The translations under genes and the position numbers were made by a program. This document shows, one piece after another, positions 3,138 through 35,549 of a stretch of 52,620 nucleotides of DNA (within the stretch, counting starts at the first letter, position 1; the number at the start of each line of letters is the position of its first letter). The notes beneath the pieces were generated by a model, which searched no databases, was not told where the DNA came from, and was given only the letters and a program-made list of their open reading frames with translations. The DNA is from Bacteroidales bacterium (GTDB taxonomy: Bacteria > Bacteroidota > Bacteroidia > Bacteroidales > UBA932): assembly GCA_017519865.1 (NCBI GenBank), contig JAFWRQ010000034.1, positions 1-52,620 of the forward strand, read 5' to 3'.

Positions 3138-3186
3138 CCGAAGGTTAGCGGTGAAAGTGCCATAACCTTCGGGCATTTCCCGAAGG
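3138..3186. repeat. CCTTCGG-family palindromes, overlapping pair
   Basis: Two alternative hairpins share bases. CCGAAGGTTA (3138-3147) pairs with TAACCTTCGG (3163-3172), and CCTTCGGG (3166-3173) pairs with CCCGAAGG (3179-3186) across loop CATTT. The second has the same design as units near 14.2 and 35 kb. The pair sits in the gap between the divergent fucosidase and ugd genes, upstream of the ugd promoter. Confidence 0.75.
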
Positions 3187-3226
3187 AGTGTTGGGAGCAG
3201 AGAGGTGAGGGGTGAAGGTGAGGGGC

Positions 3227-6550: not shown

Positions 6551-9460
6551 ATGAAGGTTTTTACCGATTCGATCCACAAGATTGCCTATTCGACAGACGC
6601 CAGCATTTACCGCGAGGTGCCTGCCGGGGTTGCGTATCCCGAGAGCATCGGGGAAATCCGCGAGCTCATCCTCTTGGCCCGGGAGAAGGGCACCTGCCTC
6701 ATCCCGCGCGCTGGCGGCACGTCCATAGCGGGGCAGGTGGTCGGTAACGGCATAGTGGTGGACATCAGCAGGCACTTCAACCATATATTGGAAATCAACG
6801 CTGAGGAGCGTTGGGCGAGGGTGGAGCCGGGCGTGGTCCGCGACGAGTTGAACCTGGCGCTTAAGCCTTACGGGCTGTTCTTCAGCCCGGAGACTTCTAC
6901 GAGCAACCGCTGCTGCATAGGCGGAATGGTGGGCAACAATTCGTGTGGAACACACTCGCTGGTGTATGGTTCCACCAGGCACCACGTGCTGCAGCTCAAG
7001 GGCTTGATGGCCGACGGGTCGGAGTTCGACACCGCGGAGCGGGGGAGCGGAGACCTCGAGCGCAGCATCTATGCGCAGCTCGAGGGCTGGCGCGACGACC
7101 CGGAGGCAGTGCGCCTCATAGAGGCGAACTACCCTGACCGGTCGCTTCGCCGCCGCAGTTGCGGCTACGCCATAGACGAGGCGCTGGGAGACGGCGGGGC
7201 CGTCGACCTCTGCAAACTCCTCTGCGGCAGCGAAGGAACGCTTGCCTTCATTACCGAGATAAAGGTATCCCTTGACCCTTTGCCCCCTGCTGAGGGGATG
7301 GTGCTTTGTGCCCATTGCCCCTCGCTCGAAGCGAGTTTCGAGGCCAATCTCGTGGCTTTGCGCCACGGGCCTGTCGCCGTCGAACTGATGGACGGGCGCA
7401 TCCTCGAACTCGGCAAGGATAACCTCGAGGCTCAGCGCAATCGCTTCTTCGTCGAAGGGGACCCTGCCGCGTTGCTGATTGCGGAGTTCCGCGGGCAGGA
7501 GATGGATGCGGCGGCCGACGCGCTGGAAGCGGAGCTTCGCGCTCTCGGCCTTGCGTATGCCTGCACGCGGGTTTACGGCTCTGAAGTGTCCCGCGTCTGG
7601 GCTCTGCGCAAGGCCGGTCTAGGCGTTCTGAGCGGTATGAAGGGCGACGCAAAGCCTGTCGGTGTCATCGAAGACACGGCCGTAGCGCCGGAGCGTCTGC
7701 CGGCGTATATGGCGGATTTCCGGGCAATGCTCGACCGTCTCGGCCTGGACTGCGTCTTTTACGGACATATAAGTACGGGTGAGCTTCACCTGCGTCCTAT
7801 ACTCAACCTTAAAACCGAGGAAGGGCGGCGGCTTTTCCGTGCCGTGGCCGAGGAGACTGCCCGGCTGGTGCGTAAGCACCGCGGCAGTCTCAGCGGCGAG
7901 CACGGCGACGGCCGTCTGCGCGGAGAGTTCATCCCCCTGATGTACGGTGAGGAGTGCTACCGCCTGATGCAGGAGGTGAAGCGCTGCTGGGATCCATACA
8001 ACGTCTTCAATATGAATAAGATAGTCGATGCTCCCGGCATGGATGAATGGCTTCGCTTCGAGCCTGGCCAGCCCTATGTCGTAGAGGATGCACGGACTGT
8101 CTTCAACTGGCGCGCAGCCTTCGACGAATGCAAGGTCGAAGGCGCGAGCGGTGTGCGCAGCCAGGCGCACGCCCTCATGTGCTCGATAGAGCAGTGCAAC
8201 GGCGCCGGCGACTGCCGCAAGTCCAACCTCATTGGCGGCACCATGTGCCCGGCTTTCAAGGCTACCCGCGACGAACTGAACACTACGCGTGCCCGCGCCA
8301 ATGTGCTCCGCGAATGCCTGACGCGGGGCGGTGGATTCACTTCTCCGGAGGTCAGGGAGATCCTCAACAGCTGCCTGGCATGCAAGGGCTGCCGTGCCGA
8401 GTGCCCCTCCAATGTCGATATGACCCGCATCCGCGCCGAAGTCCTGCAGCAGATCCACGAGCGCGAGGGAACTCCGCTGCGCTCGTTCGCGGTCGCACGG
8501 ATGGCCGCCGTCGAGCGGCTCGGCCATGTTGTGCGCCCGCTCTACAACTTCTTCGCGGGCTGGGGCCCGTCGGCGGCGCTGCTGAAGCGCATTCTGCGCT
8601 TCGCCGCCGAGCGGCAGATCCCCGCTCTCAGCCGCCGCACGCTCTGTCAGCTCCTCCGCCGCGACGGGCGCAGTCGCATCCTTCGGCAAAATGCCGAAGG
8701 ATATGCTCCCGCCCCTGGGCGGCGGGTGTACCTGTTCGCCGACGAGTTCACGAACTACCATGAGGCGGAGCTCGGGCTGACTTTCGCCCGGCTCCTGCGG
8801 CGGCTCGGTTACGACGTCGTCGTGCCCCGTCACGTCGAAAGCGGCCGCGCAGCCATCTCCAAGGGCTGTTTGAAATTGGCCCGCCGCTTCGCCGTGCGCA
8901 ATGTCAGGCTCCTGACCGACATTGTCACGGCAGACGCGCCGCTTGTCGGCATCGAGCCCTCGTGCATCCTCAGTTTCCGTGACGAGTATCCCGACCTCGT
9001 GCCCCCGGAAATGCGGCCCGCTGCCAAGGCACTTGCAGCGAACTGCCTGCTCTTTGACGAGTTCATAATGCGGGAGGTCGCCGCCGGACATATCGCCTCC
9101 GATGCGTTCCGTGACGCCCCTGTCGAGGTCTGGCTGCACGGGCACTGTCACCAGAAGGCCCTTGTAGGCGTCGAAAAGACGGCAGCGGCCCTGCGGTTGC
9201 TGCCCGGCGCCACCGTCCACGTAATTCCCAGCGGCTGCTGCGGCATGGCCGGCTCCTTCGGCTACGAAAAGGAGCATTACCGCCGCTCTCTCGAGATCGG
9301 CGAGATGGTCCTTTTCCCCGCCGTCCGCCGCGCCCTTGCCCCGTCCGGGACGCCTGCGGTCGTCGTCGCGCCGGGCACGTCCTGCCGCCAGCAGATACTC
9401 GACGGTACCGGCGCCCGCGCCGTCCATCCCGTCGAGCTCCTTTATCGCTGGCTCCGCTGA
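6551..9460 (+). CDS. FAD-linked oxidase / Fe-S oxidoreductase fusion (GlcD-GlcF or YdiJ-like)
   Basis: This 969-residue fusion protein probably oxidises a 2-hydroxyacid such as D-lactate or D-2-hydroxyglutarate and passes electrons through Fe-S clusters to the respiratory chain. Residues of about 20-230 hold the PCMH-type FAD-binding domain (PRAGGTSIAGQVVGNG, then CCIGGMVGNNSCGTHSLVYGST), and the FAD-oxidase C-terminal domain follows to about 500. Two cysteine clusters for 4Fe-4S centres follow (CNGAGDCRKSN...MCPAF and CLACKGCRAECP). The last 250 residues carry CCG-type motifs HGHCHQK and SGCCGMAGSFGYE. Residues 709-717 (RILRQNAEG) are encoded by a genomic palindromic repeat lying in frame in the linker before the CCG region. 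A hairpin over the stop codon separates the gene from rhomboid. Confidence 0.9.
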   Translation: MKVFTDSIHKIAYSTDASIYREVPAGVAYPESIGEIRELILLAREKGTCLIPRAGGTSIAGQVVGNGIVVDISRHFNHILEINAEERWARVEPGVVRDELNLALKPYGLFFSPETSTSNRCCIGGMVGNNSCGTHSLVYGSTRHHVLQLKGLMADGSEFDTAERGSGDLERSIYAQLEGWRDDPEAVRLIEANYPDRSLRRRSCGYAIDEALGDGGAVDLCKLLCGSEGTLAFITEIKVSLDPLPPAEGMVLCAHCPSLEASFEANLVALRHGPVAVELMDGRILELGKDNLEAQRNRFFVEGDPAALLIAEFRGQEMDAAADALEAELRALGLAYACTRVYGSEVSRVWALRKAGLGVLSGMKGDAKPVGVIEDTAVAPERLPAYMADFRAMLDRLGLDCVFYGHISTGELHLRPILNLKTEEGRRLFRAVAEETARLVRKHRGSLSGEHGDGRLRGEFIPLMYGEECYRLMQEVKRCWDPYNVFNMNKIVDAPGMDEWLRFEPGQPYVVEDARTVFNWRAAFDECKVEGASGVRSQAHALMCSIEQCNGAGDCRKSNLIGGTMCPAFKATRDELNTTRARANVLRECLTRGGGFTSPEVREILNSCLACKGCRAECPSNVDMTRIRAEVLQQIHEREGTPLRSFAVARMAAVERLGHVVRPLYNFFAGWGPSAALLKRILRFAAERQIPALSRRTLCQLLRRDGRSRILRQNAEGYAPAPGRRVYLFADEFTNYHEAELGLTFARLLRRLGYDVVVPRHVESGRAAISKGCLKLARRFAVRNVRLLTDIVTADAPLVGIEPSCILSFRDEYPDLVPPEMRPAAKALAANCLLFDEFIMREVAAGHIASDAFRDAPVEVWLHGHCHQKALVGVEKTAAALRLLPGATVHVIPSGCCGMAGSFGYEKEHYRRSLEIGEMVLFPAVRRALAPSGTPAVVVAPGTSCRQQILDGTGARAVHPVELLYRWLR
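8678..8702. repeat. CCTTCGG-family palindrome inside a coding gene
   Basis: Arms ATCCTTCGGCA and TGCCGAAGGAT enclose AAA. Including three flanking bases on the left, the element matches the first unit of the array at 14244 with one mismatch. It lies wholly within the FAD/Fe-S oxidoreductase gene, keeps the frame, and encodes ILRQNAEG between the second cluster domain and the CCG region. Confidence 0.9.
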
Positions 9461-13993: not shown

Positions 13994-14122
13994 AACCCTC
14001 AACTTTCGGTCGAGGGTTACCCTGCTTTACCGCAAAACCCCTCACAACCCTCAACCTCCAGTCGAGGGTTACTCCTCTTTTCCGCAAAGCCCCTCGCAAC
14101 CCTCAACCTCCGGTCGAGGGTT
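13994..14122. repeat. AACCCTC-family palindromes, three units with a 52-bp period
   Basis: Three units, each AACCCTC, an 11-base loop and GAGGGTT, start at 13994, 14046 and 14098, exactly 52 bases apart. The loops differ slightly (AACTTTCGGTC, AACCTCCAGTC, AACCTCCGGTC), and an AC/GT pair extends the stem past one mismatch. The 27-base spacers are themselves similar (both contain CCGCAAA and CCCCTC). Confidence 0.85.
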
Positions 14123-14243
14123 CGGCCGTTTCTCTGCACGGGCAGGGCAGGGCGGGCGGCGAGCCCTCAAGGCCCGCCGCTCCGGCCAGCCGCCGAGTCT
14201 CGTATTGCGAGGCGGCGATGTCCTCTCCCCGTGCGCCGGCCGC

Positions 14244-14520
14244 ATCCTTCGGCAAAACGCCGAAGGATGTCGGGGAGAGTGTCATATCCTTCGGAGTTTT
14301 GCCGAAGGATGTCAAGGTAGGTGGCGTATCCTTCGGAGTTTTGCCGAAGGATGTCAGGGTAGGTGGCGTATCCTTCGGAGATTTGCCGAAGGATGTCAGG
14401 GTAGGTGGCGTATCCTTCGGAGATTTGCCGAAGGATGTCAGGGGAGGTGGCGTATCCTTCGGAGATTTGCCGAAGGATGTCGGGGAGAGTGTCATATCCT
14501 TCGGAGTTTTGCCGAAGGAT
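14244..14520. repeat. CCTTCGG-family tandem array, seven units with a 42-bp period
   Basis: Seven 25-base palindromes with arms ATCCTTCGG and CCGAAGGAT start at 14244, 14286, 14328, 14370, 14412, 14454 and 14496, exactly 42 bases apart. The central loop varies (GCAAAACG, AGTTTTG, AGATTTG). The 17-base spacers fall into two types, GTCAGGGTAGGTGGCGT and GTCGGGGAGAGTGTCAT, with one or two base variants. Because 42 is a multiple of three, several frames stay open on both strands, but no frame has a credible start or composition. A further half unit, CCGAAGGATGTCGGG, lies at 14750-14764 just before the polymerase promoter. Confidence 0.92.
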
Positions 14521-34978: not shown

Positions 34979-35001
34979 ATCCTTCGGGAAATGCCCGAAG
35001 G
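34979..35001. repeat. CCTTCGG-family palindrome, copy near hsp20
   Basis: CCTTCGGG (34981-34988) and CCCGAAGG (34994-35001) enclose AAATG. A further GCCCGAAGG half unit lies 5' at 34951-34959. It is directly followed by ACCCTGCGGG-family units, placing two families in one composite block. Confidence 0.8.
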
Positions 35002-35020
35002 CAGCGCCCGAAAACGCCCC

Positions 35021-35117
35021 ACCCTGCGGGCAAAAACCCGCAGGGTGCGGCAAAAAATGCGGTACCCTGCGGGTAAATGCCCGCAGGGTACCCTCAAAAA
35101 CGGCCAACCCTGCGGGT
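35021..35117. repeat. ACCCTGCGGG-family palindromes abutting the hsp20 stop
   Basis: Complete units lie at 35021-35046 (loop CAAAAA) and 35064-35089 (loop TAAATG), and a half unit ACCCTGCGGGT at 35107-35117 touches the hsp20 stop codon at 35118-35120. All are downstream of hsp20 on the minus strand and could form 3'-end hairpins of its transcript. Confidence 0.88.
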
Positions 35118-35549
35118 TTAGCCGATCTCGATCTGGCGGCTGGCCGGGGTCTTGACGGTCACTTCCTTCTTCGGGAGGGTGATCTTGAGGACTCCGTCGA
35201 CCATGGCGGCGCCGATGCCTTCGGCTTCGACCTCGTCAGGGATGATGAAGGCCTGCTTGAACGACGCGTAAGAAAACTCGCGGCGCAGGTAATTCTTCTT
35301 CTCGTGCTTGTCCTCGTTCTTCTTTTCTAAGGCGATGACGAGCTCGTTGTCATTTTCGAGGCGGACCTTGAAGTCTTCCTTGCTCATGCCGGGAGCGGCG
35401 ACCTCGATCTGGTAATCCTTTTCGTTCTCGATGATGTTGACGGCCGGTGAAGCGAACTGCTTCGCGGGCGTGTAGCCCATGAAATCGTCATCGAAAATGT
35501 CGTTGAAAATGCTGGGCAGCCAATACTGGTTTCTTCTTGCGGGTAACAT
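35118..35549 (-). CDS. hsp20: Small heat-shock protein, Hsp20/alpha-crystallin
   Basis: This 143-residue ATP-independent chaperone binds unfolding proteins. The alpha-crystallin domain begins near SPAVNIIENEKDYQIEVAAPGMSKEDFKVRLENDNELVIALEKK, followed by YLRREFSYASFKQAFIIPDEVEAEGIGAAMVDGVLKITLPKKE with the conserved GVLxITLPK end. A short C-terminal tail (ASRQIEIG) supplies the IxI-like oligomerisation motif. The promoter region is distinctive: a sigma-54-type site at 35624-35641 and three TGAC-N5-GTCA palindromes upstream. The stop codon abuts a palindromic repeat. Confidence 0.95.
   Translation of the reverse strand: MLPARRNQYWLPSIFNDIFDDDFMGYTPAKQFASPAVNIIENEKDYQIEVAAPGMSKEDFKVRLENDNELVIALEKKNEDKHEKKNYLRREFSYASFKQAFIIPDEVEAEGIGAAMVDGVLKITLPKKEVTVKTPASRQIEIG

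Follow-up and report, generated by a model that had tools for sequence, protein, structure and literature searches.

A dispersed, RAYT-flanking palindrome carried in frame in an oxidoreductase gene of a Bacteroidales genome

The window, which is the whole stretch of DNA that was analysed, comprises 52,620 nucleotides from a genome of an uncultured Bacteroidales genus. On its plus strand, an open reading frame at 6551-9460 encodes a protein of 969 amino acids that was assigned with Pfam and NCBIfam as an FAD-linked oxidase/4Fe-4S oxidoreductase similar to D-2-hydroxyglutarate dehydrogenase (YdiJ). The Pfam families PF02913, PF01565, PF13534 and PF13183 (FAD-oxidase and 4Fe-4S) matched above their cut-offs, and the best NCBIfam model was YdiJ (NF049975) with 591 bits, which is under its curated cut-off of 1350. 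Among named relatives, the gene is matched best by Bacteroidales MAGs, many of which come from ruminant and horse gut. Within the gene, a palindrome of 25 bp is located at 8678-8702. It has the structure ATCCTTCGGCA-AAA-TGCCGAAGGAT with 11-bp arms around 3 central bases, and the reading frame continues across it without interruption. The first codon of the palindrome is codon 710 of the gene, and the residues 710-717 read ILRQNAEG. The RNA of this 25-mer was predicted to form a hairpin of -17 kcal/mol (z -6.9).

The first-pass annotation had proposed that the palindrome is a genomic repeat inserted in frame into a coding gene, and that it belongs with an intergenic array in the same window. 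The array, at 14244-14520, consists of seven units of the same family spaced by exactly 42 bp, each unit being the 25-bp palindrome and a 17-bp spacer. The observation was confirmed, and its interpretation was supported. The first unit (14244-14268) differs from the in-gene copy in one base, the flanking CGC is common to both, and one reading of the array also encodes RILRQNAEG. When the window was searched with the pattern TCCTTCGG-N(0-16)-CCGAAGGA, eight matches were obtained, the in-gene copy and the seven units of the array, whereas 0.01 were expected from 100 shuffles. In addition, two single diverged copies were found. The copy at 3164-3188 lies outside any open reading frame of at least 120 amino acids. 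The copy at 34979-35003 lies in a long reading frame on the minus strand and was set aside as an intragenic candidate because it is upstream of the likely, signal-peptide-like start, as judged by eye. Other palindromes were observed next to the array and next to one of the diverged copies. A second repeat resembling AACCCTCAACCTCCGGTCGAGGGTT directly precedes the array (window 14000-14125), and similar sequences occur by other clusters of the family (L016, L017). A row of palindromes of the CCCTGCGGG..CCCGCAGGG type (window 35010-35120, minus strand) adjoins the diverged copy at 34979, and the two are perhaps a mixed array of two families.

The genome of the window (G000) has 2.1 Mb in 37 contigs and is 75% complete. 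It contains 29 exact copies of the palindrome and 58 loose copies with up to three mismatches, compared to a single match for the reversed control pattern. The 25-mer at G000:C1:11089 is identical to the in-gene palindrome. Exact copies were present in 4 of 300 genomes of the genus, including this one. The family is real and limited to few lineages. The location was determined for 54 of the 58 loose copies, which fall into 20 clusters, and the clusters were called as gene or non-gene by eye from the reading frames, the G+C content by codon position and signal peptides. Most of them (17 clusters with 50 units) lie outside confident genes, either in intergenic regions or ahead of likely starts; the copies in other long reading frames were set aside by eye as intragenic candidates since they are ahead of likely starts. 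Three clusters with four units are inside confident genes, namely the oxidoreductase, a ComF-like gene and TilS. In its arrays the family is repeated in tandem at 42 bp, sometimes 41 bp. Since a single unit is a near-perfect palindrome, the orientation of the units, and whether they form inverted REPIN pairs, is hard to define.

Matches to the oxidoreductase were obtained in 17 of the 300 genomes of the genus (E below 1e-150, own genome included), and none of the 17 has an internal stop. The three nearest species, G169, G081 and G190, are 90-92% identical to the protein over the matched part. In each of them the match stops at residues 707-709, where the insertion is located, and the frame remains open. 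In G169 the linker contains four 51-bp units of the palindrome TGAACAAA-N9-TTTGTTCA, in G081 a GCGCACRAA-N9-TTYGTGCGC palindrome in five units of 51 bp, and in G190 a serine/alanine-rich stretch with a GTCATTC-type element (GTCATTCCGAGCG, GTCATTCCGAGCGCAGCGAAGG). G169 and G081 are 95% identical before the linker and 93% after it, but the families in the linker differ. Each of the three linker repeats is dispersed in its own genome. Among 18 genomes, the TGAACAAA palindrome was found only in G081 (19 copies) and G169 (17), and the GCGCAC palindrome only in G081 (14) and G169 (2). The GTCATTC pattern was found in 11 of the 18, most often in G027 (28) and G190 (26), and with 0 copies in the genome of the window. 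Repeats of the GTCATTC..GCGAAG type, which are read as HSERSEES or HSELVSES, are common in Bacteroidetes; our own counts cover the 18 genomes only. Their sequence is unrelated to the TCCTTCGG family, and they occupy the same linker not only in G190 but also, as another GTCATTC element, in G027. Outside these genomes, L198 and L228 have palindromes at the oxidoreductase linker with arms of 11 and 9 bp, respectively, and the linker of L228 holds a peptide of HSERSEES/HSELVSES appearance. It seems that one flexible stretch of the protein has been colonised repeatedly by small mobile DNA.

The length of the linker was compared in 93 unique orthologues, which correspond to 97 loci (17 of the genus and 80 of named genomes) less four duplicates. 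The linker has 31 residues here, whereas the median is 22 and the congener G003 has 19. It exceeds 30 residues in 11 of the 93 orthologues, and in at least four of these 11 long linkers no palindrome of 8 bp or more was detected. A motif search of the 97 loci, by which the first-pass annotation could be checked, found residues resembling ILRQNAEG in the window's own copy only. In an AlphaFold model of the protein that was built from 33 sequences, the mean pLDDT was 86, and the residues 713-720 were below 50; they lie between a helix whose last residue is 704 and a strand that begins with residue 724. According to this model, the palindrome sits in a predicted disordered linker.

The inserted segment may be longer than the palindrome. 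A putative whole unit of 42 bp at 8678-8719 (plus strand) would encode 14 codons, ILRQNAEGYAPAPG (residues 710-723), in the linker before VYLFADEF. Of the 42 bases of this segment, 34 agree with the unit at G000:C1:11047, including 11 of 17 in the spacer part. Since the same spacer match was also reached by 108 of 2000 shuffles when compared with the 34 array spacers of the genome, an insert of one 42-bp unit, or 14 codons, is only suggested. No close empty site was found. In the clade of 90-92% identity the linker is occupied in all four members, which counts against the insertion that we favour below, and the nearest empty linkers are those of relatives at 74-76% identity.

In-frame copies of the palindrome were also present in two other coding genes of the same genome, for which the first-pass annotation had advised a search. 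The comparison with orthologues and this search, both of which it had suggested, agree with its interpretation. TilS, identified by TIGR02432 above the cut-off, has two in-frame units 42 bp apart. TilS was searched in 18 genomes and matched in 17. The linker has 14-24 residues in ten of them and 51-65 in the other seven, including the genome of the window. The own linker is 51 residues long, and when the 28 residues of two units are subtracted, 23 residues are left, inside the range of the short linkers. In the ComF-like gene, where TIGR00201 scored below the cut-off, a single in-frame copy is located between NVRGAF and HVLLVDDTF. Sixteen other genomes gave a match; when counted on the alignment, ten of them have a shorter linker than this one, with 9-17 residues, and six have a longer one. 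Subtraction of 14 residues leaves only 5, which is under the 9-17 of the ten shorter orthologues, and a clean 42-bp insertion is therefore unsupported in this gene. Its spacer was matched as well by 559 of 2000 shuffles. In the ComF-like genes of two other genomes (L128 of G064 and L129 of G003), we observed long in-frame inserts reading VIPGLTRNL or VIPGLTRSL and RHSRPDRES, which we take to be translated REP-type repeats.

Other, longer hairpins were found in the TilS linkers of G190, G081, G023, G047, G194 and G111 (L131-L148), and their stems are species-specific. When the G111 hairpin was aligned with those of G023 and G194, the reversed orientation scored 67 and 66 and the same orientation 14 and 22, with largest shuffle scores of 18.5 and 19. 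The G081 hairpin scored 87 against that of G190 in the opposite orientation and 47 in the same. The hairpin element in the TilS linker can be read through in both orientations.

The genome contains one match to PF01797 (Y1_Tnp), the protein P0002 at C9:38308-38523 with 32.9 bits (cut-off 23). For the model of REP-associated tyrosine transposases, NF047646, P0002 stayed below the cut-off (35.9 bits versus 80), and a search of the PDB sequences with P0002 gave no match. The palindrome flanks the P0002 reading frame on both sides, with one copy beginning 199 bp upstream and two copies downstream, at 15 and 57 bp. The upstream copy is the one inside comF, and the ComF insertion and the flanking of the RAYT are therefore not independent findings. 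Among eight genomes of the genus, including this one, matching palindromes on both sides were found for 10 of 14 RAYT genes and for 1 of 185 control genes; they were absent in four RAYTs. The 14 RAYTs derive from 24 matches at 15 loci, of which one, truncated at the edge of its contig, was left out. Two of them score below the Pfam cut-off, and the set includes two pairs of close orthologues from G023 and G047. The flanking palindromes differ from RAYT to RAYT, except in the pairs of close orthologues. The single control gene with matching flanks was rejected as a RAYT, as its sequence reads as a membrane transporter, located between TGAACAAA units. In G081 and G169 four RAYT loci were found, none of which is flanked by TGAACAAA or GCGCAC palindromes, and a RAYT of either family was therefore rejected for these loci.

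The foot of the hairpins was inspected in 53 copies. GT[AG]G was found at the 5' foot in none of them on either strand and at the 3' foot in 12. A canonical GTAG REP was ruled out because the 5' foot is absent in the copies inspected. However, since the RAYT gene is flanked on both sides by the palindrome, the elements are REP-like although they lack the canonical foot. The first-pass annotation had likened the palindrome to the Rickettsia palindromic elements (RPEs). The likeness stands for the behaviour of the element. In anatomy the RAYT-associated REP elements are closer relatives, because the RAYT gene found in the genome is flanked by the same palindrome.

The repeat that occupies the linker of G169 showed a difference in spacing. 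In G169 and G081, the TGAACAAA units outside genes have a spacing of 50 bp throughout (21 of 21 gaps in 16 clusters). Inside genes, the spacing is 51 bp throughout (8 of 8 gaps) in 3 clusters, which are those of the G169 oxidoreductase and of HemW in G169 and G081. With Fisher's test, p was 2e-7 when gaps were counted and 0.001 when clusters were counted; several clusters are orthologous between G081 and G169, which reduces the effective number. Six of the 16 outside clusters lie in reading frames of at least 150 amino acids that were called non-coding from base composition only. The name HemW is based on TIGR00539, with a score just under the cut-off. The GCGCAC family showed no such contrast, as its spacing is 51 bp in the gene and mostly 51 bp outside. 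A spacing of 51 bp keeps all units in one frame, and the gain or loss of a unit does not shift it. Since translation would demand a spacing that is a multiple of three, whereas splicing or bypassing would not, the spacing favours translation of the inserts. At the second site in HemW, G081, G169 and G023 have a long version, and the eight other genomes that were compared over the full site have a short one. At about residues 72-131 (GNRGTGNVLRTPPKQALVPPSYVAEGG; L160 1511-3037 in G081 and L156 1222-2949 in G169), HemW has a segment that matches many places, with many matches in G000, G190, G081 and G169 and few elsewhere. By its matches, the segment reads as another dispersed repeat carried in frame.

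Taken together, our results show a dispersed family that flanks a RAYT gene, in-frame copies in three genes, different occupants of the same linkers and, for one family, a spacing inside genes that is divisible by three. The in-gene palindrome is very probably a copy of a lineage-specific, RAYT-associated REP-like family that was inserted in the oxidoreductase gene and is tolerated by the linker. The repeat unit would have been copied into the genome, probably by a RAYT, either the present or a former one. A copy would then have entered the oxidoreductase gene, probably as one unit of 42 bp or 14 codons, and the protein would have gained about 9 to 14 residues in its disordered linker. The insert would be translated in the cell and neutral, and the protein presumably still works. 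Selection would remove most insertions elsewhere in genes, whereas insertions into a disordered linker would persist if their length can be divided by three. The linker appears to act as a permissive site for landing, where inserts expand by whole codons and are replaced as the repeat families turn over.

A palindrome that arose by chance or by codon usage in a G+C-rich gene would have no relation to the array. The 8-base half site TCCTTCGG alone is indeed expected 2.7 times in the window, but the whole pattern only 0.01 times. The genome also has an identical 25-mer at G000:C1:11089, and none of the other orthologous loci gave such residues in the motif search. This origin was rejected by the counts, which leave it practically no probability. 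Another explanation is that the insert is removed before or during translation, by RNA excision or by ribosomal bypassing of the hairpin, and that the protein is made without it. The hairpins are strong enough to invite this idea, from -17 kcal/mol for the 25-mer up to -104 to -110 for the whole TilS linker in G190, G081, G194 and G111. However, all 17 oxidoreductase matches are free of stops, and in all 8 in-gene gaps the spacing is divisible by three although the same TGAACAAA family is spaced by 50 bp outside genes. Since a removed segment need not keep the frame, this spacing disfavours removal, and we consider it highly improbable.

The inserts could also be selected for a function, such as linker length, mRNA structure or translational pausing, and not merely be tolerated. 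The same linkers are occupied recurrently in the FAD oxidoreductase, TilS, ComF-like and HemW genes, as a function would suggest. However, the sequence, the length and the family of the inserts all vary between close species, and 82 of the 93 orthologues keep an oxidoreductase linker of 30 residues or fewer. Selection for a function is therefore unlikely, and tolerated insertion of a REP-like element is the explanation that we prefer. A wider reading of it, which we find conceivable but put forward tentatively, is that in this Bacteroidales lineage a few linkers of core enzymes (the oxidoreductase, TilS, the ComF-like protein and HemW) serve as lasting landing sites. REP and hairpin families would colonise them, adjust to the frame, with 50-bp units becoming 51 bp, and replace one another from species to species.

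If this landing-site reading is true, the turnover of REPs would continually supply conserved proteins with new coding sequence. The linkers offer a natural, countable record of the insertion of mobile repeats into conserved genes. Sister species whose inserts differ can be compared at the same position of a protein, and the difference between 50 and 51 bp tells the copies that are read by ribosomes from those that are not. This makes it testable how transposon-derived repeats supply protein segments and which linkers tolerate them.

Insertion of palindromes in frame into conserved protein genes is shared with the RPEs. These are elements of 105-146 bp in Rickettsia, and an RPE-carrying guanylate kinase is translated and active with an altered substrate affinity, as described in a review (PMC2229807). 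Compared by description, our element differs from them, being a 25-bp palindrome in a 42-bp unit of a Bacteroidales genome with a RAYT and not of Rickettsiales. With the REP and REPIN elements of RAYTs it has in common that a short dispersed palindrome flanks a RAYT and is mostly intergenic and sometimes in conserved genes. It is unlike the known REPs in lacking the 5' GT[AG]G foot, in its tandem 42-bp units and in its occurrence in an uncultured Bacteroidales genus, and the locus is unlike theirs in having four dispersed families at one linker in four close species and a spacing of 50 bp outside and 51 bp inside genes. Intragenic REPs in conserved genes, with the proposal that linkers tolerate them, have been published already, and two Xanthomonas species are reported to carry different REPs at nearly the same position of recB (Di Nocera et al. 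2013, PMC3733652). That account also names Bacteroidetes among the hosts of CGTC repeats and treats shorter RPE families as CGTC-type REPs. In the open-licence literature, supplementary gene lists excluded, we found no report of in-frame REPs at shared linkers in Bacteroidales, and no paper on HSERSEES was found there. New are the RAYT-linked case in Bacteroidales, the occupation of shared linkers by unrelated families in closely related species, and the change of register from 50 to 51 bp. In the classification of PMC6006769, Bacteroidetes RAYTs with atypical hairpins form subclass 2.6. When compared on two of the three motifs described there (the third is WQ), P0002 has NHFH and YIYNNP in common with subclass 2.4, whose tnpA-REP genes carry in-frame REPs themselves (PMC6006769).
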